Assembly: GCF_007859865.1 (NCBI RefSeq)
Contig: NZ_SJPI01000001.1
Span: forward strand, 558,001-622,000
Reading direction: 5' to 3'
DNA from: Rubripirellula amarantea
GTDB taxonomy: Bacteria; Planctomycetota; Planctomycetia; Pirellulales; Pirellulaceae
Length of the DNA stretch: 64,000 nt
Shown one piece after another: positions 1,644 through 34,751 of this stretch (positions are counted from its first letter, which is position 1; each line of letters starts with the position of its first letter). The notes below the pieces were generated by a model. The model made no database searches. It saw nothing but the letters and a program-made list of their open reading frames with translations, and was not told the DNA's origin. The position numbers and the translations under genes were made by a program.

Positions 1644-3623
1644 ATGCACATCCCGCACTTGATGCAGAAACGATTCGAGAACGCGCTCGAATCAATGACG
1701 TCAACGCCTGAGAAGTACGCCTCCATGATCCGGTCGACATCGGATCCCAATCACGGAGACTTCCAAGTCAATCTAGCCATGCCGCTATCCAAGGAACTTG
1801 GCAAACCGCCACGTGACGTTGCGGGCGAAGTGGTGGGTGCCGTTGACGTTGCGGATGTGTGCGAACCACCGGAAATCGCTGGCCCTGGGTTTATTAACCT
1901 AAAACTAAAAGATGATTTCATCGCGGCTGAAATCACTAAGTTGATTGGCGATGCCCGCTGCGGTGTTCCCAAACGCAAGTCGAACGACACAATCGTGATC
2001 GACTTTTCGTCCCCCAACGTTGCCAAGCCCATGCATGTGGGGCACATTCGCAGCACTGTTATTGGTGACTCGTTAGCACGCGTTTTGAATTTCCTCGGCT
2101 ACAACACGATTACCGATAATCATCTTGGCGACTGGGGAACTCAATTCGGGATCATCATCTACGGGTACAAACATTTCGGTGACCCTAAAGCTGTTGCTGC
2201 TGACCCGGTGCCCGAACTCGCAAAGCTTTATCGTAAAGTCAATTCATTAATCGAGTTCTGTAAAGCGAAGAAGCGAATCCCTCAGTTAACCTCTGAAATC
2301 GAGTCCGCCAAGGAAGAACTTGCTCAGTTGCAATCGACTGATATTTCAAGTGACCCTAAAGCAGAAAAGAAACACAAAAAGTCGCTTGCTGGGGCCGAGC
2401 GAAAGATTGGTTCGTTGCAGTCAGAACTCAGCGACACACAAGCCAAAATTGACGCTGTCGAGCAGGACCCGCAAGCAAACGCCGAAGCGATTAAGCATGC
2501 CGATATTGATAAAGCAGTGCTTGAAGAAACGGCAAAATTGCATCGCGGAGATGAAGAGAACTTAAAGTTGTGGGAGGAATTCCTGCCGAACTGCAAAGAC
2601 GAGATCAATCGAGTCTATGACCGTTTGGGCGTCACGTTTGATCACACGTTAGGCGAGAGCTTCTATCACAAGATGCTGGGTGTCGTGGTCTCGGAACTCG
2701 AGGCCAAAGGATTGGCGTCCACCAGTGATGGAGCCGTTTGCGTTTTTCTGGATGCCTTTGACGCCCCCATGATCGTTCGCAAACAAGACGGTGCCTATCT
2801 TTATGCAACAACCGACTTGGCAACGCTTCGCTATCGTCAAAACGAGTTTAAGCCGACCGAAATTTTGTATGTCGTTGACACTCGCCAAAGCGAACATTTT
2901 GACAAGATCTTTGCCGTCGCCCACGAATTCGGCCTCAAGGATGTCAAACTCGTCCACGTCAATTTCGGTACGGTGCTCGGCGAAGACGGTCGCCCAATGA
3001 AGACTCGTAGTGGAACACTAATTGGGCTCGAAGGCCTGCTTGACGATGCCGTGGAACGAGCCCGGCAAGTGGTATGCGATCCCGAGCGTTTGAAGAACTT
3101 CGACCCTCCCATGGACGCTGCCGAACAAGAAATGGTGGCCGAGACGGTTGGTATAGGTGCAATCAAGTTTGCGGACCTGAGCCACCACCGTACCAGCGAC
3201 TATAAGTTCAGCTTGGATAAAATGATCGCGCTGGAAGGAAACACGTCCACCTACGTTCAGTATTCTTATGCTCGAACTCAAGCCATTTTGACTCGTGCGG
3301 AAAAACTTGAATCCGACGTTTATGAGATGGTACAGGCTCATGGCATAACATTTACTCACCCTGCGGAACGGACTTTGGCCGTGAGTTTGCTTCGATTAGA
3401 AGAGGCACTACTGACGGTTCACAAAGATTATGCCCCCAATGTTTTAGTAGAGTATTTGCTTGATACAGCTCGCAATTACTCTCGATTTAACGACAACTGC
3501 CACGTACTGAAGGCTGAAACCGAAGCGATTCAAGCTACAAGATTGGCGCTAGTTACTTTGTCGGGACGAGTACTACAACTCGGCTTAAGTCTGCTAGGCG
3601 TTGATGTCGTTGGCCGGATGTGA
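1644..3623 (+). CDS. argS: Arginyl-tRNA synthetase
   Basis: Class I aminoacyl-tRNA synthetase charging tRNA-Arg. The N-terminal tRNA-binding domain contains the GDFQVNLAMPLSKELG segment. The HIGH motif reads KPMHVGHIRST, and the KMSKS-equivalent reads MKTRSG, as is usual for ArgRS. The C-terminal anticodon-binding (DALR) domain ends in a GLxLLGV..GRM tail. ATG 1644 (MHIPHLMQKRFENAL) gives 659 aa; an in-frame ATG at 1581 would add 21 low-complexity residues. Unusually, about 65-90 residues between the first part of the Rossmann domain and the conserved LWEEF segment (bases about 2260-2540) are charged and coiled-coil-like with heptad character. This insert is absent from textbook ArgRS. Confidence 0.95.
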   Translation: MHIPHLMQKRFENALESMTSTPEKYASMIRSTSDPNHGDFQVNLAMPLSKELGKPPRDVAGEVVGAVDVADVCEPPEIAGPGFINLKLKDDFIAAEITKLIGDARCGVPKRKSNDTIVIDFSSPNVAKPMHVGHIRSTVIGDSLARVLNFLGYNTITDNHLGDWGTQFGIIIYGYKHFGDPKAVAADPVPELAKLYRKVNSLIEFCKAKKRIPQLTSEIESAKEELAQLQSTDISSDPKAEKKHKKSLAGAERKIGSLQSELSDTQAKIDAVEQDPQANAEAIKHADIDKAVLEETAKLHRGDEENLKLWEEFLPNCKDEINRVYDRLGVTFDHTLGESFYHKMLGVVVSELEAKGLASTSDGAVCVFLDAFDAPMIVRKQDGAYLYATTDLATLRYRQNEFKPTEILYVVDTRQSEHFDKIFAVAHEFGLKDVKLVHVNFGTVLGEDGRPMKTRSGTLIGLEGLLDDAVERARQVVCDPERLKNFDPPMDAAEQEMVAETVGIGAIKFADLSHHRTSDYKFSLDKMIALEGNTSTYVQYSYARTQAILTRAEKLESDVYEMVQAHGITFTHPAERTLAVSLLRLEEALLTVHKDYAPNVLVEYLLDTARNYSRFNDNCHVLKAETEAIQATRLALVTLSGRVLQLGLSLLGVDVVGRM

Positions 3624-3731: not shown

Positions 3732-4100
3732 ATGGCAAAGAAAAAAGCTGCCGGCGGAAATAAGTCTCAAGCAATTCGCGACTATAAAGCAGCCAACCCC
3801 ACGGCAATGCCTTCTGAGATAGCCCAGAAGCTTACTGAGCAGGGCTTTGACCTCAACGCAGGGTTTGTCAGTACCGTTTTATCGACTGCGAAACGCAAGA
3901 CTAAGGTCGGCCGCAGAGGTCGACCGAAGGGCTCCAAGAACAAGCAAGTCGCAGGTGCGGTCGGCCGTCCGCGCAAGACGGATTCCGGAGCCACCATTTC
4001 AGTTGACTCACTTATCAAAGCGAAGAAGTGGGTCGACGAGATCGGCGGAATCGACGAGGCCAAGTCCGCCATCGAGACACTCGAACGATTGATGAAGTAG
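3732..4100 (+). CDS. Small basic protein with AT-hook-like motifs
   Basis: A 122-aa basic protein. Residues 1-55 look like a small helical domain (SQAIRDYKAANPTAMPSEIA then GFVSTVLS), similar in feel to a winged-helix or HTH fold. A flexible basic linker follows with two AT-hook-like cores, RGRPKGSKNK and VGRPRK. The last ~35 residues form a helix (ISVDSLIKAKKWVDEIGGIDEAKSAIETLERLMK in outline). AT-hooks bind the minor groove of A/T-rich DNA, so a nucleoid-associated or regulatory role is likely but inferred. Similar proteins are, as far as I know, common in planctomycetes and not characterised. It has its own promoter with a dyad at 3630-3657, which could allow autoregulation. Confidence 0.8.
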   Translation: MAKKKAAGGNKSQAIRDYKAANPTAMPSEIAQKLTEQGFDLNAGFVSTVLSTAKRKTKVGRRGRPKGSKNKQVAGAVGRPRKTDSGATISVDSLIKAKKWVDEIGGIDEAKSAIETLERLMK

Positions 4101-4356
4101 CGGTTGATTCCGCGTCAGGTATCAGCCCGCGGCCTGTCTGCCCCCGAGTCCAGAATGCTCCGATGCCACCGCCGTGGCAGACTCGGAGTAGAACTTCGGG
4201 GACGGAGGCGGCGATTTCGCCTGCATAATCGATCCCGACCCCCCAAAGCGAACGTATTCCACGCGTTTTCGTCAGTCTTTCAGGGGCACGGTGCGGCAAT
4301 CTACTGTGTACAATTCAGCAGTAATTCTTGTCTCCGGCACCGCAACGCTTTTTTCC

Positions 4357-5865
4357 ATGACGGACATCACCGCTCAAAATTTTGTACAGCGAATTGCTGA
4401 CCTCGGGCTCGCTGAGCGGTCTGTGGTGAACCGTGCCTATGGAGAAATGGGAGCAGGTGACCACACGCTTCAAGACGTGGTCAAGGCAATGCAGCGGCAG
4501 GGGATCGTCACCACGCTGCAGACCGACAAAATTCTTAAAGGCGATCGTCACGGGTATTTCTACGGTGACTATAAAGTCTTGTACCTGATCGGTGCGGGTA
4601 CATTCGCGCGAGTCTATCGCGCCGAAAAGTTCGGTGGCGAAGTCTACGCCATCAAGGTGCTTCGCAAACGCTTTCGCGATGAAATCAAAGAGCTGGAACA
4701 GTTCCTTCGCGAAGGACGCATGGGATTACGATTGCGACATCCCAATATCGTTAGCATTTTGGAAGTGGTTCCCGACGTTCACAATCCGTTCTTGGTGATG
4801 GAGTTTGTCGAGGGCCAGACACTTCGAGAGCTCGTCAAGGTGCGCGGCAAGTTACCCGCCGATCTAGCACTCCGCCTGATGTACGAAATCGCATCAGGAC
4901 TCGCGTACGCGGCGTCGTTGGGGATTGCTCACCGTGACCTGAAGCTTTCCAACGTTCTGGTGTCATCCGACGGCAAAGCCAAGCTGGTGGACTTTGGGTT
5001 GGCAGCACTCACCGACCGCAACAACCCGGAAAAGATGGCGGATTGCCCGAACGCTAGAGCGATCGACTATGCAGCGTTGGAACGCGGTACAGGCGTTCGC
5101 AAGGATGACCCACGCAGCGACGTTTATTTTGCTGGCAACATGCTTTATCACATGATTGCCGGTACGCCAGCACTTACCGAAACTCGCGACCGTTTGGCTC
5201 GCCTTAATGTAAGCCGGTTCCAAGAAATTCCACCGCTGCACGAACGCGTTCCTGATGTGCCCGGGATTGCGAATCATTTGGTTCAGCGCGCGATGGCATT
5301 TAATCCCGAAAAGCGAATTCAGTCTGCCGCGGCGCTGCAAGCCGAGGTCAAGAAGGCGATTAAAATCCTGGAAGAGGGTAAGAGCGGAACGGGGGATCAA
5401 CCTTACAACCTTCCGATGGCCGATCACCAAGATGATGACGAAGACCCAACCAATGAAGGCGAGGGCTACGTCGTCATGCTCGTTGAGTCTAAGCCCGGAC
5501 TGCAGAACGCCATTCGCGAACGCTTGAAGTCTCGCGGTTATCGGGTGCTCGTGATTTCCAACCCTAACCGGGCTCTCGATCGCTTTAGTGCCCAAGAGGA
5601 GGCACCAGCCGATTGCGTTATTTTCGGTGCATCAGAACTTGGCAATTTGGCCGTCGAGGCGTTTAACCAGTTTGCATCGGATGACCACACCAGTTCGATC
5701 CCGACCATTTTGCTGGTGGATCGGCGTCAATCCCACATCATCGGTGCCGCGCGGCGAGGGCCCAACCGCAAGATGCTGGCGTTGCCACTTAAAGTTCGCG
5801 AATTGCGAACTGCACTTAACCAGCTTCTCTCAGGCGTTGAGAGACGTGAATTAGGCACGTACTAA
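4357..5865 (+). CDS. Ser/Thr protein kinase with a degenerate receiver-like C-terminal domain
   Basis: A 502-aa cytoplasmic Hanks-type kinase with no transmembrane segment seen. The kinase domain (about 70-340) has the Gly-loop GAGTFARVYRAEK, the ATP-anchoring Lys 100 (YAIKVL), the catalytic loop HRDLKLSN with Asp 194, and the DFG Asp 212. The APE motif is altered (YAALE). A short helical N-terminal region (1-65) precedes the kinase. After an acidic linker (356-370), residues 370-495 resemble a CheY-type receiver (YVVMLVESKPGLQNAI, then a PTILLVD-like strand). The position of the phospho-acceptor Asp reads VIFGAS, so it probably cannot be phosphorylated. ATG 4357 was preferred over 4291 because the extra residues are not kinase-like. 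The target is unknown. Confidence 0.9.
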   Translation: MTDITAQNFVQRIADLGLAERSVVNRAYGEMGAGDHTLQDVVKAMQRQGIVTTLQTDKILKGDRHGYFYGDYKVLYLIGAGTFARVYRAEKFGGEVYAIKVLRKRFRDEIKELEQFLREGRMGLRLRHPNIVSILEVVPDVHNPFLVMEFVEGQTLRELVKVRGKLPADLALRLMYEIASGLAYAASLGIAHRDLKLSNVLVSSDGKAKLVDFGLAALTDRNNPEKMADCPNARAIDYAALERGTGVRKDDPRSDVYFAGNMLYHMIAGTPALTETRDRLARLNVSRFQEIPPLHERVPDVPGIANHLVQRAMAFNPEKRIQSAAALQAEVKKAIKILEEGKSGTGDQPYNLPMADHQDDDEDPTNEGEGYVVMLVESKPGLQNAIRERLKSRGYRVLVISNPNRALDRFSAQEEAPADCVIFGASELGNLAVEAFNQFASDDHTSSIPTILLVDRRQSHIIGAARRGPNRKMLALPLKVRELRTALNQLLSGVERRELGTY

Positions 5866-6906: not shown

Positions 6907-8079
6907 GTGAAACCCAACTCGCCAATATTGTTGAACTTGCTCACCAAACTCCGTCTGGTGATGTGCCTATTCGTCGCGGTTCTCGTGACGACTCAGGTTG
7001 GCTGCTCGCTCTTTCCCGAATCCAGGCATCGGGATGTTTTGCACAATCCTTTTCCGCAACTCAAGCGAGTCGCGGTGCTGCCGTTCTACAACCAAAGCAG
7101 CGAGCCCACGGTTGATGTCGATATGGTGGCCGAGAAGTACTACGCGGCGTTGCAAGCGGTGCCCGGCTTTGAGGTCTTGCCGCTAGGTGTTGCCAAAGCG
7201 CAATGGCTTGCTTACAGCGTTCACTATGGCGAGCCCCGAACAGGCGTCGACTTCCAAAACCTTGCTCGTCAAATGGGCGTCGAGGCAATCGTTGTGGGCT
7301 CCGTCACTGACTTCCAAGCCTATTACCCACCTCGCATGGCAATGACCGTTCACTGGTACGCTGCTAACGAAGGCTTTCACCCGATTCCCGCCGGGTATGG
7401 CTTGCCATGGGGCACCAAACAAGAAAAACAAATTCCGCGACAGATCGTTCGTGAGGCAGAGTTCGAATTGGCACGCAGTCAACTTGCCACTCAAACTCCC
7501 GTTTCACCCGAGAGCGTCAATCCAATCGAACAAGTCAACGCAGACCCTAGTAGCGTAAGTCAAACCTCGGGCACTTTGGCTTTGCAAGCACCGAACGCGT
7601 CGTCATTGAACCCGATGGAACTGCAGGGCGAGCAGATCATGTTGAACGATCCATCATTCGGTTCCGCCGCAATCGAGGGTGATGTCTTTTACGATGACAA
7701 CGTCGTTTACGACGGGTCGCATCAGGAAAGCGGATACATCGAAGACTTTGAAGCTCCGCTACCGCCTGCGTGGCCTGATCCAACGGACTTGATTCCCGAT
7801 CCACCAAGCCCAGTTGCACCGGTAGCCATCACCAACCGAAAACCGGTGCTATCGCATACTCGAATCTATCGAGGTGACGATCCTTACTTTACGGGACGGC
7901 TTGCTGACTACGTAGAAACGGGCGACGACGCACGTTCGAACGGTTGGCAGGGTTACCTCAAACGTTCCGATGATTTCGTTAGTTTCTGTTGTCACTTGCA
8001 TATCACCGAGATGTTGGAATCTCGAGGCGGTAAGGAGCAAAGCGAGTTCATTCTTCGTTGGCCGCTTAGCCGATACTGA
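6907..8079 (+). CDS. Putative lipoprotein with a TolB-N/CsgG-like N-terminal domain
   Basis: A 390-aa protein with an N-terminal hydrophobic segment ending in VGC at about residue 33, a likely lipoprotein signal although the -3 residue is not the canonical Leu. The next ~110 residues (RVAVLPFYNQSSEPTVD, then GVEAIVVGSVTDF) have the alternating strand-helix pattern of the CsgG/TolB-N/LpoB-like fold found in envelope lipoproteins. Residues about 190-300 are low-complexity and rich in Pro, Ser and acidic residues. The C-terminal part is not recognised. It starts with GTG after a long non-coding stretch. A role in the cell envelope is inferred only from export and fold. Confidence 0.75.
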   Translation: MKPNSPILLNLLTKLRLVMCLFVAVLVTTQVGCSLFPESRHRDVLHNPFPQLKRVAVLPFYNQSSEPTVDVDMVAEKYYAALQAVPGFEVLPLGVAKAQWLAYSVHYGEPRTGVDFQNLARQMGVEAIVVGSVTDFQAYYPPRMAMTVHWYAANEGFHPIPAGYGLPWGTKQEKQIPRQIVREAEFELARSQLATQTPVSPESVNPIEQVNADPSSVSQTSGTLALQAPNASSLNPMELQGEQIMLNDPSFGSAAIEGDVFYDDNVVYDGSHQESGYIEDFEAPLPPAWPDPTDLIPDPPSPVAPVAITNRKPVLSHTRIYRGDDPYFTGRLADYVETGDDARSNGWQGYLKRSDDFVSFCCHLHITEMLESRGGKEQSEFILRWPLSRY

Positions 8080-8191
8080 TTTCAGGCGAGCACCTTGTGG
8101 CTCGACCCCATGCATGCAACGGCGTCAACTTGGCGCGGTCATGCCAATCAAGTCAGTTAGTTGCTCTCTCATATCAGGCTAGTAAACGGAA

Positions 8192-8446
8192 ATGGGCGAA
8201 TTCGACAAAGAGGTCAATGTTCTCGCGCTCGTCAAAGGTGAAGAACGATTCATCTTTCTTTTTGACGACGAGAACCGTGATGAGACGCTCCGTCAGCTTG
8301 CTCGCTTTGCAGCCGATCCCGAACTTGATTTCTCTTGGTACGACGCTGCAATGCTGAGCCGCAAGATTCGCGATGCGGTTCCGTCAGAAGATGATTTCTT
8401 GGCGAGCGAAGAGTTTGATAGCCTTTCGATCGACGACTTCAACTAA
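8192..8446 (+). CDS. Small acidic hypothetical protein
   Basis: An 84-aa acidic protein (MGEFDKEVNVLALVKGEERFIF at the start), predicted as a small alpha/beta fold with a short acidic C-terminus ending SIDDFN. I do not recognise a named domain; proteins of this type appear to be conserved among planctomycetes. A GGAA precedes the ATG. It lies 112 bases after the lipoprotein gene and 85 bases before xerD on the same strand, so it may be expressed with xerD. Confidence 0.75.
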   Translation: MGEFDKEVNVLALVKGEERFIFLFDDENRDETLRQLARFAADPELDFSWYDAAMLSRKIRDAVPSEDDFLASEEFDSLSIDDFN

Positions 8447-8531
8447 CGGCAAGAGCAACGACCGCGGACAGGGATGGAAGCGGTTTGATATCTTTCTATC
8501 AATGCATGGATGCGGTCTGACGAGACATCTC

Positions 8532-9434
8532 ATGCGCCGATCTATTCCTCAATTCCTAACGTTCTTGGCAACCGAGCGCAACGCGTCGGATCTGACGATC
8601 AAGGCGTACCGAGAAGACCTGTTCGGTTTGACCGAATGGCTCGAAGCGACACGGGGCAGCATTCCCAAGCCAGATGCGCTGACGCCCCAGGACCTGCGAG
8701 CTTACCAGGCCGCGTTGCAGCAGGCCGGTTACGCCCGAACGACGATTTCAAGAAAACTCGCCAGTTTGCGGAGCTTTTATCGCTTTGCAATGCGTCAGGG
8801 AATCGCTTCGACGAATCCTGCAAAACCACTTCGCAATCCGCGGCGGCAACGCAAACTTCCGCACGTGTTGACCAACGACGAAGTGGGTCGATTACTGATC
8901 GCACCACCGGCGAACGACAAAGCGGGTCTTCGTGACCGCGCAATCTTGGAAACAATGTACTCGGCCGGTTTGCGGGTCAGCGAGCTAGTCGGAATGCAAG
9001 ATGGCGACGTGGACTACGATGAACAGATAGTCCGAGTCCGCGGAAAGGGACGCAAAGAACGCATTAGCCCACTCGGGTCATTTGCAATTCGCGCGATCAA
9101 AAAGTATGCCGCCAATCGTGTGAGGGACCCCAAGGTCGAGGCCAAAGGTCGACAAGCGCCAGTGTTCGTCAATCGCTTTGGCAAAATTCTTACCACGCGA
9201 AGCATCGGGCGGATGCTCGAGAAATACATCGGGCTTGCCCAACTCGATTCGCGAACAAGCCCTCATACGCTTCGTCACAGCTTTGCCACGCACCTGCTTG
9301 ACCGAGGTGCCGACATTCGAAGTGTTCAGGAACTGTTGGGTCACAAGAGCTTAGCAACGACGCAGATCTACACGCACGTCAGCGCGGCCAACCTGCGTCA
9401 GGTCTACGAGAAGGCTCACCCACGAGCCAACTGA
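8532..9434 (+). CDS. xerD: Tyrosine recombinase XerD/XerC
   Basis: Site-specific recombinase that resolves chromosome dimers at dif during division. The 300-aa product (E. coli XerD is 298) has the N-terminal SAM-like core-binding domain (residues 1-95) and the catalytic domain. All catalytic residues are visible: Arg 148 (SAGLRVSEL), Lys 172 (VRGKGRKER), His 245 and Arg 248 (HTLRH), His 271 (LLGHKS) and the nucleophile Tyr 280 (IYTHVS). The match in position of Arg 148 and Lys 172 with E. coli XerD favours XerD, but XerC cannot be excluded without the second gene. An upstream in-frame ATG at 8502 would add ten residues. Confidence 0.92.
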   Translation: MRRSIPQFLTFLATERNASDLTIKAYREDLFGLTEWLEATRGSIPKPDALTPQDLRAYQAALQQAGYARTTISRKLASLRSFYRFAMRQGIASTNPAKPLRNPRRQRKLPHVLTNDEVGRLLIAPPANDKAGLRDRAILETMYSAGLRVSELVGMQDGDVDYDEQIVRVRGKGRKERISPLGSFAIRAIKKYAANRVRDPKVEAKGRQAPVFVNRFGKILTTRSIGRMLEKYIGLAQLDSRTSPHTLRHSFATHLLDRGADIRSVQELLGHKSLATTQIYTHVSAANLRQVYEKAHPRAN

Positions 9435-9467
9435 AGCCTAGAACCTCAGCGGTCCCAAGCACACCGA

Positions 9468-10142
9468 CTATGACCGATAGCTCTTGGCGAGCGTTTCGGG
9501 TGATGCCCCCAGGGCGAACCGAACTTGCAACGACCAATTATGAAGCGTTTGTCGGACCACCCCGTTTTGTCGCCATCGCCGATCGCTGATCGTAACGGGC
9601 CCCGGTAAGAGCCTTGGCTTGTCGATCTTGCGAAGACGCGTTGATAATTCCACGTCTTCCATCAAAGGTACCTCGGCGATTCCACCGTACTTCTTCAGCA
9701 GGCTACGGTTGGCAAAGATGGCTTGGTCACCAAAGGCCACCGAACGATAGCGCACCCTAGCATTGTTGCCACGTTCGACCCAGCGATAGATCGTTCGCGA
9801 GGAGTCGATGCGCTGTTCGAACGCACCCCACAGAAAGTCACCGCACTGACAAATTTGGTTTAGCGCATCCACACCGAGACGATTATCGGCGTGCAGAAGC
9901 AACACTACGTCTCGATCAGCCACGCGGAGTCCGCTGGCGAGCTGCGTCCCTCGACCGGGAAATGATCTCACAAGCTTATCGACGCCGGCCACACGAGCGA
10001 TCTCGAGCGTGGCATCCGAGCTGCCACCATCGCTGACAATGACCTCGCCCGCACCGGCTTGTTTCGCCGACTCGACTGCTGCTGCGAGGTTCGATGCTTC
10101 ATTCAACGTGGGAATGATGACTGAAACATCGTGAGGCGTCAT
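9468..10142 (-). CDS. Family 2 glycosyltransferase (TIGR04283-like)
   Basis: A 224-aa GT-A-fold glycosyltransferase, soluble as far as visible. The N-terminus has VSVIIPTLNEASNL and VIVSDGGSSDAT (nucleotide-sugar binding), with a DxD-like metal site LLHADNR. PLMEDVELSTRLR resembles the ED-acceptor region, and the C-terminus carries the RRW motif. These features fit the TIGR04283 subfamily. Its donor and acceptor are unknown. Its ATG overlaps the stop of the upstream LptF/G-like gene by four bases (ATGA), so the two are translationally coupled, pointing to a membrane or envelope glycan/lipid role. The frame stays open further upstream into the permease gene, but that is not credible coding sequence. 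Confidence 0.88.
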   Translation of the reverse strand: MTPHDVSVIIPTLNEASNLAAAVESAKQAGAGEVIVSDGGSSDATLEIARVAGVDKLVRSFPGRGTQLASGLRVADRDVVLLLHADNRLGVDALNQICQCGDFLWGAFEQRIDSSRTIYRWVERGNNARVRYRSVAFGDQAIFANRSLLKKYGGIAEVPLMEDVELSTRLRKIDKPRLLPGPVTISDRRWRQNGVVRQTLHNWSLQVRFALGASPETLAKSYRS

Positions 10143-11278
10143 ACCAACTGCACTTCTCGGAGTCGAACGTAGGCTATCGGGCCAAATACTATCAACGGAA
10201 CCCAAGCAGCCATACCGGGCGAAATCATATAGCCGCCGCTTCCGATCATCGAGGCAACGGTTTTGACTAAGAAGAATCCCATCACCGTCACCATTGCGGC
10301 TCCGATCATGACAAACAAATTGCGGCCTTTTCGATTCACCACCATCGGCAATGCCAACATGATCAAGGCAAAATCCAGTGGTGGCCGAACGATTCGTTCG
10401 TGCAATAGCACCTGCAATCCCATGCTGCTGTGCACGGCAGGATTGCGAACCTGGGCCACCAACTCGGGAATGGACGCGCGTCGCGTTGCCGATTCGCTGG
10501 CTTGCAAAAGATCTGGTGAAACGCTCGTTGCGAGAAAACACTGGCCGGGTTGAAGCCAGTCTTGGTCATGCGATGTCAATAATACAGGACGTTTTTGCCA
10601 GAACGCCGATGCTAAAGTATCGATCTGCTCAGGACGACGAACCCGGTTCAGGAGAAACCCCGAGGGCAGAGTAGGGGATGCTTCCATCCATTTCGCTTCC
10701 TTAGCCAAAATCATGTCGCCAAACCCGACAAGGTTTCCATCGAGTCGAAAGTTGGGCTCTTGAAGGGTACCGTTGCTCGCGATCATCGAAGTCCCGTCGA
10801 TCAGAACACGATTGACCTTGTCGTACTTCGCCTTGACGTCCTGTTCCATCGTGGGATTGATGTCCTTGGCCTTCATCGACAAAGCATCACGGTACTGAGG
10901 CAACACGAATTCGCGATTGACCATTTGAGCACCGACGATCAATAACGACGCCACGATCATCGGACGCAGCAAACGCCCGTGCGAGATGCCCGCGGCCAAC
11001 GTCGAAGTAAGCTCACCCGTACGACGCAACCATCCCACGGTGAACAAGAACGCCATCATGGCGATGATGGCACCGGTCCAATCGAACATCAACAACATGA
11101 AGGGACCGTAGTACCGCGCCATCACCTTCACCAATCCTCCCTCGCTTTGCCCGAGCTTGACGAAGTCGTCCATGCTCGTGAAAGCAGAAAAGACAATGAA
11201 GACGCCGGCGATCGAGCAGAAACAGATGACGACTGTCCGAAGAAAGAGCGTCAATATGTAGCGGTCGATTTGGGTCAC
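10139..11278 (-). CDS. LptF/LptG (YjgP/YjgQ) family permease
   Basis: Inner-membrane component of the LptBFG-type ABC system that extracts lipopolysaccharide for transport to the outer membrane. The predicted start is GTG 11278 (VTQIDRYILTLFLRT), matching the family start of a short amphipathic segment and first helix, and giving 379 aa. An ATG at 11371 would add 31 atypical residues. Three helices at the N-terminus, a periplasmic beta-jellyroll region (about 120-270) and three more helices at the C-terminus can be seen. Only one of the two family members is present here, and no lptB is nearby. The coupled glycosyltransferase downstream suggests a joint role in envelope glycolipid handling. 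Confidence 0.85.
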   Translation of the reverse strand: MTQIDRYILTLFLRTVVICFCSIAGVFIVFSAFTSMDDFVKLGQSEGGLVKVMARYYGPFMLLMFDWTGAIIAMMAFLFTVGWLRRTGELTSTLAAGISHGRLLRPMIVASLLIVGAQMVNREFVLPQYRDALSMKAKDINPTMEQDVKAKYDKVNRVLIDGTSMIASNGTLQEPNFRLDGNLVGFGDMILAKEAKWMEASPTLPSGFLLNRVRRPEQIDTLASAFWQKRPVLLTSHDQDWLQPGQCFLATSVSPDLLQASESATRRASIPELVAQVRNPAVHSSMGLQVLLHERIVRPPLDFALIMLALPMVVNRKGRNLFVMIGAAMVTVMGFFLVKTVASMIGSGGYMISPGMAAWVPLIVFGPIAYVRLREVQLV

Positions 11279-11583
11279 AACAGAAACGGGGTAGGGTGGT
11301 GTGCGGGTGGATAGGGGAATTGAGCAATATCCGAGATACGACCCGACCGTGGCAAGATCGAGATCGAACAATCTGATGCGAGAATCAGACCTTCTGCTGT
11401 GAAACGGTCGTGAAACTTTCTTTGCATCTTTGGTGCTAGGTTTTCCGAGACCGGAATACCCACTTGGGGCAGCTCATCTCGGAAGCGACAAGCTGCTCGC
11501 TTTCCGATATCTTTGCCATAGAATGAGCCGTACCATTCACCATCCAGATTGTCACCGCAAATTTCATCCCCGTCGCTGTATCC
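11279..11583. other. Divergent intergenic region
   Basis: Separates the LptF/G-like gene (minus) from the thioredoxin-fold lipoprotein gene (plus). Any promoters for both genes must lie here, but I see no strong -35/-10 pair. The first ~95 bases could belong to the permease if it starts at ATG 11371. Confidence 0.4.
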
Positions 11584-32255: not shown

Positions 32256-33161
32256 ATGAAACTCATCTATCACATCACCGTCCTTGCGAGTGTCGTGCTA
32301 TTAGCCGGAACAGCATGCTCAGCACCACCAACAACTGACGCTGCAAACGTAGAAAACAATGCGTCGAAGACGAACACGAATAAGAAAGCCAACTCTCGCA
32401 AGCCTCAACCCGATGAAATACTGTCCTACAAGAAAGTGGGAGATATTGATCTAACGCTTCACATCTTCCGGCCTGACGATTCGACAGCAGATCAAAGTCG
32501 GCCAGCGATCGTTTTCTTTTTCGGCGGAGGCTGGGTCAGCGGATCACCTCAGCAATTTTATCCCCAGGCAAAGCACTTGGCTTCCCAAGGAATGGTTGCA
32601 ATTTGCGCTGACTACCGAACACAATCACGTCACCAGACTCCACCTACGGCGTGCGTAGCCGATGGTAAGTCAGCGATCCGATACGTACGAAGCCATGCCG
32701 CTTCACTGGGTATCAATCCGAACCAAATTGCTGCGGGTGGTGGATCCGCCGGCGGCCACGTTGCCGCAAGCACGGCAGCATTGACTTCGTTTGACGACGA
32801 GAACGACGACACGAGTGTTTCGTGCCGCCCCAATGCCTTAGTGCTTTTCAATCCGGTGTTTGACAATGGCCCGAATAACTGGGGACACAAGAAGGTCAAA
32901 GCCTACTGGCAAGAGATTTCCCCGGCGCACAACCTTCACGCAGATATGCCTGCGACCCTGGTCATGCTTGGAACCAGTGACAATCTTATTCCGGTTTCGA
33001 CTGCGGAAAACTTCCAAACCAAGCTTCAGTCGCTGGGAGTACGATGCGAGTTGAAACTGTACGACAATCAACCGCACGGATTTTTCAACAAAGCGAAGTA
33101 CAAAGAGACGGTCCAAGACATGGACGTCTTTCTTAGATCACTAGGTTACTTGCAAGAATAA
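32256..33161 (+). CDS. Exported alpha/beta-hydrolase (acetylesterase/lipase-like)
   Basis: A 301-aa protein with a hydrophobic signal (VLASVVLLAGTACSAPP), a possible lipoprotein although the residue three before the Cys is Gly. Residues 28-60 are a polar linker. The hydrolase domain shows the oxyanion strand FFFGGGWVSGS, the nucleophile elbow GGGSAGGHVAA with Ser, then Asp in GTSDNLIP and His in QPHGFF, completing the triad. The GxSAGG pattern is that of the hormone-sensitive-lipase/BD-FAE group, often acetyl esterases of polysaccharides. Start ATG 32256 lies 13 bases after astB; ATG 32229 would overlap it. A direct metabolic link to astDB is not evident. Confidence 0.85.
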   Translation: MKLIYHITVLASVVLLAGTACSAPPTTDAANVENNASKTNTNKKANSRKPQPDEILSYKKVGDIDLTLHIFRPDDSTADQSRPAIVFFFGGGWVSGSPQQFYPQAKHLASQGMVAICADYRTQSRHQTPPTACVADGKSAIRYVRSHAASLGINPNQIAAGGGSAGGHVAASTAALTSFDDENDDTSVSCRPNALVLFNPVFDNGPNNWGHKKVKAYWQEISPAHNLHADMPATLVMLGTSDNLIPVSTAENFQTKLQSLGVRCELKLYDNQPHGFFNKAKYKETVQDMDVFLRSLGYLQE

Positions 33162-33203
33162 GCTAGCCGCCATTCCCTTCGTTTGCCACTCGACAAGGCG
33201 CGC

Positions 33204-33878
33204 TTAGCGATACAGCAAAGGCGCACCGTAACGAGCGTGAATTTGGTTCACCTCGTCCGGACGCAATCGCATGCATTCGGCTAACGCTTTCAGGTAGCGA
33301 GCTTCGTCGTGCGTATCCAAGTTGATCGCCATCAGCGAGACATTGTAAACCTCGTATTCCATTCCGGTTGGGATGTCATGCACAAACTGTTAAACGTCGT
33401 GGCGACGATTGAAGTGCTGACGCAGGAATTGAGTTTCGGCTGGATCGAGGGGCTGCAGTTGCCGAATGATGTTGTCTTGCTCTGCTTTATCAAGCCGACC
33501 ATCGGCCTGCGCGGCCATGATCATCGCGATGATCAGTAGCTCAGCGCGTTGGTTGAAATTTCGTCCCGAATGATGAGTGTCATGGTCATGGCGCGGCTTG
33601 GGAACGCGCTTCGCAGGTTGACGTCCAATCCATTGATTCGCGGGTTCAGGAAATCGACCACCATGTTGATGATGACGATGGACCGAATCACGAACGATGT
33701 GCTCAAAGGGCGCATGATGGGAAGGCGGAAATCGTTGTGGCGGACGGGGTTGAGATTGATTCGATGCTTGAACGACATTGGCGACGCCGTTGAGCACCTC
33801 ACCCAATATGCGACCATTGCCGGGAGCACGCCCGGTACGGTTGGCGAGCAGTCCGCCAAGAATTCGTGCAGCGTCCAT
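33204..33878 (-). pseudogene. DUF533 (TerB/YebE-like) gene interrupted by an in-frame stop
   Basis: The frame begins at ATG 33878 and encodes 162 residues, including RAELLIIAMIMAAQADGRLD, the DUF533 start of the TerB-like helical domain. It reaches TAA at 33390-33392 and continues open in the same frame for 61 more residues to TAA at 33204-33206. The continuation reads IPTGMEYEVYNVSLMAINLD, then EARYLKALAECMRL and IHARYGAPLLYR, exactly the normal end of the DUF533 family. A single nonsense codon thus splits an otherwise intact gene. The first part is His/Arg/Pro-rich. It may be a recent pseudogene, a sequencing error, or translated by readthrough. Functions of this family are unclear. Confidence 0.82.
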
Positions 33879-33965
33879 AGATAAGTTCTCCGCTTAGATA
33901 AGGTGTTGATGAGTCATCAGTGTAGCCGACCTAGCCCCGCCACGCTGTACACTCGGCCACCATGC

Positions 33966-34751
33966 CTATTCTGGTTGACTAAGCCAAACCACGGCGCGGC
34001 ATAGCACCCCTAGAAATACGTCATCGCTGAACGTGTCGTTGGAATGCCCGTAGGTGGTGCCGAAAACCTTGGCTTGGCCATAGGTATTCGTCCAAAAAAC
34101 CGGGTGAGCGACTTTCGTGTTTTCGCTTTCACTGGTCGCCAACACCTCAGCGCGTGGCCAAAGTTTCTCGATCACGTACAGTTCGTCTGTCGCGGATACA
34201 TAATCGGCGGGAACGTTCGCCATGATCGGATGGCCGGGTTTTTCGATCTTCACTGGATACCGACTTTGGTGATCATGCTTGCGACTCGTCACACCTAAGA
34301 ACTCTCGCCAATCATCAATCTCTGCTCCCCGGTAGGTGTGCATCGCGCAGTGAATTACGATCGCATTGGCTCCGGCGTGATGAGCCTTGGTGATTCGACG
34401 AATGTACGCCGGATCCTTCGTGTCCGCAAAGCATTCGTTATGAATCACAACGTCATAACCGGTCGCCCATTCTGGATCATCGTAAAGTGCAATTTGAGCG
34501 TCGGTTCCCGTGCCCCCGTCGTTGACTACTGTCCAGTTCGCTTTGATTCCATGGTCCTTCACCGCCAACTGCATAGCCTTCGTCTGAAAGTCATAGTCGT
34601 GACAACACCCACCAGTAATTAGCAGAATATCCACCGACCGCTCGCTCGCATTCGAAACATCAGTCTGCGACCGAGCGACTCCCGAGTCCAAGATTGACGC
34701 TACCGCTACCACGGCCAAGGTGAACGATAAGGACAGCATCCGAATAAGCAT
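33966..34751 (-). CDS. Secreted ThuA-domain protein
   Basis: A 261-aa exported protein; ATG 34751 gives a signal peptide (MLIRMLSLSFTLAVVAVASIL, cleavage near GVARSQ). The mature part has a ThuA/trehalose-utilisation fold resembling class I glutamine amidotransferases: ILLITGGCCHDYDFQ, then YDVVIHNECFAD, ANAIVIHCAMHTYRG and HPVFWTNTYGQAKVFGTTYGHSN. The Cys in the nucleophile-like region does not clearly make a triad. Such proteins are abundant in planctomycetes, with sugar-related roles proposed but no general reaction established. Frames upstream of 34751 are not protein-like. Confidence 0.87.
   Translation of the reverse strand: MLIRMLSLSFTLAVVAVASILDSGVARSQTDVSNASERSVDILLITGGCCHDYDFQTKAMQLAVKDHGIKANWTVVNDGGTGTDAQIALYDDPEWATGYDVVIHNECFADTKDPAYIRRITKAHHAGANAIVIHCAMHTYRGAEIDDWREFLGVTSRKHDHQSRYPVKIEKPGHPIMANVPADYVSATDELYVIEKLWPRAEVLATSESENTKVAHPVFWTNTYGQAKVFGTTYGHSNDTFSDDVFLGVLCRAVVWLSQPE

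Follow-up and report, generated by a model that had tools for sequence, protein, structure and literature searches.

A DUF533 gene of Rubripirellula amarantea interrupted by a single in-frame TAA, probably a recent nonsense mutation

Belinky et al. 2021 (PMC7918605) report that in-frame stop codons are widespread in bacterial genes, are accompanied there by dN/dS values below 1 and mostly persist for a short evolutionary time, with readthrough perhaps a frequent outcome. The interrupted genes of that study combine a single in-frame stop with a conserved remainder. So does the DUF533 gene reported here from the planctomycete Rubripirellula amarantea (genome G000), whose stop fits their short-lived class. 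Being seen in one genome only, this stop adds nothing to the argument for readthrough made in PMC7918605. It looks like an ordinary nonsense interruption, not a new biological mechanism, and the finding by itself is of little weight. A real stop would show a gene just beginning to be lost, in a lineage with a patchy distribution of the family; an erroneous one would be an annotation warning, the case of a gene wrongly called a pseudogene or two fragments.

The gene lies in a stretch of 64,000 nucleotides, which was analysed as a whole and is referred to in the following as the window. It belongs to the DUF533 family (PF04391), the function of which is unknown; in a literature search the term DUF533 was absent from the titles and abstracts of the matches listed. 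The frame occupies 675 bases of the window (33204-33878) on the minus strand, which corrects an earlier description of the locus. Translated from 33878 to 33204, it yields 162 residues, a TAA, a further 61 residues and the natural stop. Its parts, together with a short motif preceding it, are the following:

33390..33878, minus strand: upstream part of the DUF533 gene, 162 codons and the in-frame TAA (PF04391, E 6.1e-12)
33390..33392, minus strand: in-frame TAA cutting the DUF533 gene (from translation; sense codon in 6/6 aligned orthologues)
33204..33389, minus strand: downstream part of the DUF533 gene, 61 codons and the natural stop, end of the domain (PF04391, E 1.2e-10)
33888..33891, minus strand: GGAG, 9 bases ahead of the start codon, a plausible ribosome-binding site (putative, from the upstream sequence)

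The upstream part consists of an N-terminal stretch and a linker, followed by the first portion of the C-terminal domain, and matches the Pfam profile at positions 53-121 (45.9 bits). The downstream part, or tail, matches positions 131-177 of 178 (41.7 bits). Both scores exceed the curated cut-off of 29.6 bits and, since the two parts match PF04391 in family order, the interrupted frame is not a product of chance. The original prediction, a nonsense codon dividing an otherwise intact DUF533 gene, is confirmed by the translation and by these two matches, and the 61 residues that follow the TAA in frame do correspond, as it proposed, to the normal ending of DUF533 proteins. Its further claim that the frame is otherwise undamaged holds as well, as neither a second internal stop (in the translation) nor a frameshift (in the alignment with orthologues) was found. 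The reading frame through the domain is not continuous, and because the TAA at 33390-33392 lies inside the domain, the gene is classed as a DUF533 gene in broken form. Against NCBIfam the upstream part had no match and the tail only an implausible one (E 0.13), and a PDB sequence search found no credible relative (best E 0.56). Scans of positions 33100-34100 returned one promoter-like site (0.7 in shuffles) and two terminator-like sites (0.9 in shuffles), none of them of use.

Six orthologues were aligned with the gene, namely those of R. obstinata (G002), Rhodopirellula rubra CECT 8075, Planctomycetes bacterium K23_9 and the genomes G021, G001 and G003. The closest, G002, is presumably Rubripirellula obstinata CECT 8602 (NZ_LWSK01000082.1); its gene is a single open frame with 74% identity across query residues 1-161, with 115 of 157 aligned residues identical in the upstream part and 46 of 60 aligned positions in the tail. 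It is flanked by two genes which we take to be AstB-like and RND-adaptor-like, names that come from a reading of the sequences and not from a family search. The window gene has the same pair around it, separated from it by an additional gene on either side (an alpha/beta hydrolase and ThuA), and these shared flanking genes indicate that the R. obstinata gene is a true orthologue. A single TAA cuts the window copy, but the orthologues are uncut: in all six the frame is whole, with a sense codon at the stop column, which is the pattern looked for in a recent pseudogene. R. obstinata has Glu at the stop column, encoded by GAA, and the remaining five have His, encoded by CAC or CAT. A CAA (Gln) precursor had been envisaged; as the column holds Glu or His and never Gln in the six orthologues, a Gln codon would be a possible immediate ancestor of the TAA, but not the favoured history.

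We consider it probable that the interruption is a recent nonsense mutation, and that the gene is probably an early pseudogene. A single such mutation would recently have hit the DUF533 gene of a Rubripirellula-type planctomycete. Translation would end after 162 residues and, as this point lies within the C-terminal domain, the shortened product probably cannot fold as the protein of the relatives does; the gene would stand at the start of pseudogenisation. The structure predicted for the R. obstinata orthologue is poor (mean pLDDT 50.1, 4 sequences); in it the domain looks all-helical, with seven helices from residue 103 on, and the stop corresponds to model residue 158, near the start of the fourth helix (residues 157-162), with three more helices after it. 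If this weak model is followed, the truncated product would lack about half of the domain; it would presumably have lost its function. For the reading as an early pseudogene, the analysis shows the stop, the intact orthologues, an intact paralogue and the patchy occurrence of the family within the genus; the reality of the base, the recent date of the mutation and the loss of function are inferred.

The age of the interruption can be approached through the tail. Compared with R. obstinata by the Nei-Gojobori method, the tail has 22.5 nonsynonymous differences at 141 sites (dN 0.18, dS about 1.8) and the upstream part of the domain 23 at 129 (dN 0.20, dS about 2.4), with synonymous sites so near saturation that the resulting dN/dS ratios (near 0.1) are rough. 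If selection on the tail had been absent for a large part of the period after the divergence from R. obstinata, nonsynonymous changes should be far more numerous, and in this comparison the dN values point to no such excess. The comparison shows strong past constraint, and the tail appears to have been under purifying selection through most of its history. Residues of the tail unique to R. amarantea and to R. obstinata stand at 4:3, 2:3, 3:4, 5:2 and 3:3 with the five outgroups. The maximum-likelihood tip length for the tail (61 residues only) is 0.26 in R. amarantea versus 0.12 in R. obstinata, the reverse of the upstream part (0.18 versus 0.26). Likewise, the mean dN to the five outgroups is slightly higher in R. 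amarantea than in R. obstinata for the tail, and lower for the upstream part. The faster change of the R. amarantea tail may possibly be a trace of relaxation, on 61 residues, but these comparisons suggest neither a clear relaxation nor a firm sign of decay in the tail. The absence of clear decay means that the interruption is either recent or not real. The very recent mutation named in the original prediction is thus supported by the intact orthologues, the low dN of the tail and the otherwise undamaged frame.

That the stop is not real is the main rival explanation: a one-base sequencing or assembly error would leave the gene whole in the organism, and in this single assembly sequence a single miscalled base would be indistinguishable from a mutation. 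We regard such an error as less likely than a mutation, but as the likeliest alternative to it. It would agree with damage to only one codon of the frame and with a tail as conserved as that of a working gene, but the assembly (6.95 Mb) is contiguous, with 9 contigs, and 99.56% complete. Moreover, none of 218 protein family matches elsewhere in the genome (76 sulfatase, 74 ABC-transporter and 68 response-regulator matches) has an internal stop. This survey covered three large families, with matches spanning domains and not whole genes, and used the same search method that flagged the TAA in the DUF533 gene; its result makes an assembly full of wrong bases unlikely and leaves room for isolated errors. 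A separate scan for split genes by codon usage, over 462 kb of the genome, missed the DUF533 gene and is not counted as evidence; its sole candidate looks like two neighbouring genes.

If the stop is real, it might still be used, by readthrough or otherwise, to give a small amount of full-length protein. The long purifying selection on the tail would suit this, and in-frame stops common to at least two species, with dN/dS below 1, are reported for bacteria in PMC7918605, where readthrough is proposed in general for such stops. Here, however, the column has a sense codon in all six orthologues and the stop is conserved in none. A PF04391 search of 241 genomes of the taxonomic family gave 131 matches with internal stops at four places, that of R. 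amarantea and three others which lie elsewhere: just before the domain in G167, upstream of the matching stretch in G110, and further towards the end than in R. amarantea in G111, where the copy matches only in part. None of these three recurs at the R. amarantea column. The RNA of 121 bases that begins just ahead of the stop folds a little less well than its shuffled versions (z +1.18) and so forms no structure beyond that of shuffled sequence. Nor does a stop-reading tRNA appear: tRNA genes occur at at least 67 places in the genome (150 of 273 candidates scored), and ARAGORN, applied to 27 loci and to 40 places within 14 stretches, found no UUA, CUA or UCA anticodon among the typed ones. It left one gene (L122) untyped, the loop of which, in our own reading, suggests CUC. 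Reassignment fares no better, as the absence of in-frame stops from the 218 family matches makes TAA seem not to be recoded. Use of the stop, which the original prediction had listed among its explanations, is therefore without support from the orthologues, the RNA fold or the anticodons, and we judge it very unlikely.

As an observation apart from the stop, positions 7002-11297 of locus L110 (G000:C2:1112000-1131500) hold 32 tRNA genes in a dense one-strand array, and many of these genes score low for the family. The array adjoins a gene for a Ro60-like protein with TROVE and vWA_Ro60 domains (4014-5744), and whether it is connected with RNA quality control would merit attention.

The halves could also be made separately and pair as a split protein. 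An in-frame GTG (33383) shortly after the stop would permit a restart and opens a 59-residue reading frame (33204-33383), but no ribosome-binding site was seen before it by eye, and none of the six aligned orthologues is split; we find this extremely improbable. Taken on the sequences compared, readthrough, restart and recoding all appear to have no positive evidence. A more elaborate proposal strikes us as highly improbable: a genuine ochre codon, fixed in the species, would be read through in part (or both halves would be made and would pair) and would so tune the level of a DUF533 protein while the lineage is losing the family.

Loss of the gene, as the reading of a recent nonsense mutation entails, would be nothing unusual in the lineage. 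Of the 22 genus genomes, 6 have a PF04391 match (E 0.001) and 16 have none, some genomes being incomplete, so that the number without a match is an upper bound; in the taxonomic family, 105 of 241 genomes have one at the same threshold. The R. amarantea genome contains two matches, the interrupted gene and an intact paralogue (G000:C1:2287475-2287948), and this paralogue, together with the 16 of 22 genus genomes lacking a match, makes the gene look dispensable.

Two further observations concern DUF533 genes of other genomes. At L050 (G167:C9:196800-199300), in the same taxonomic family, a DUF533 gene carries a single TAA before the domain and has an otherwise intact frame. Beside a DUF533 paralogue at L015 (G001), at about 2600-3500, stretches of about 100 residues are repeated almost identically at intervals of about 300 bases; they resemble repeated DNA more than a gene.
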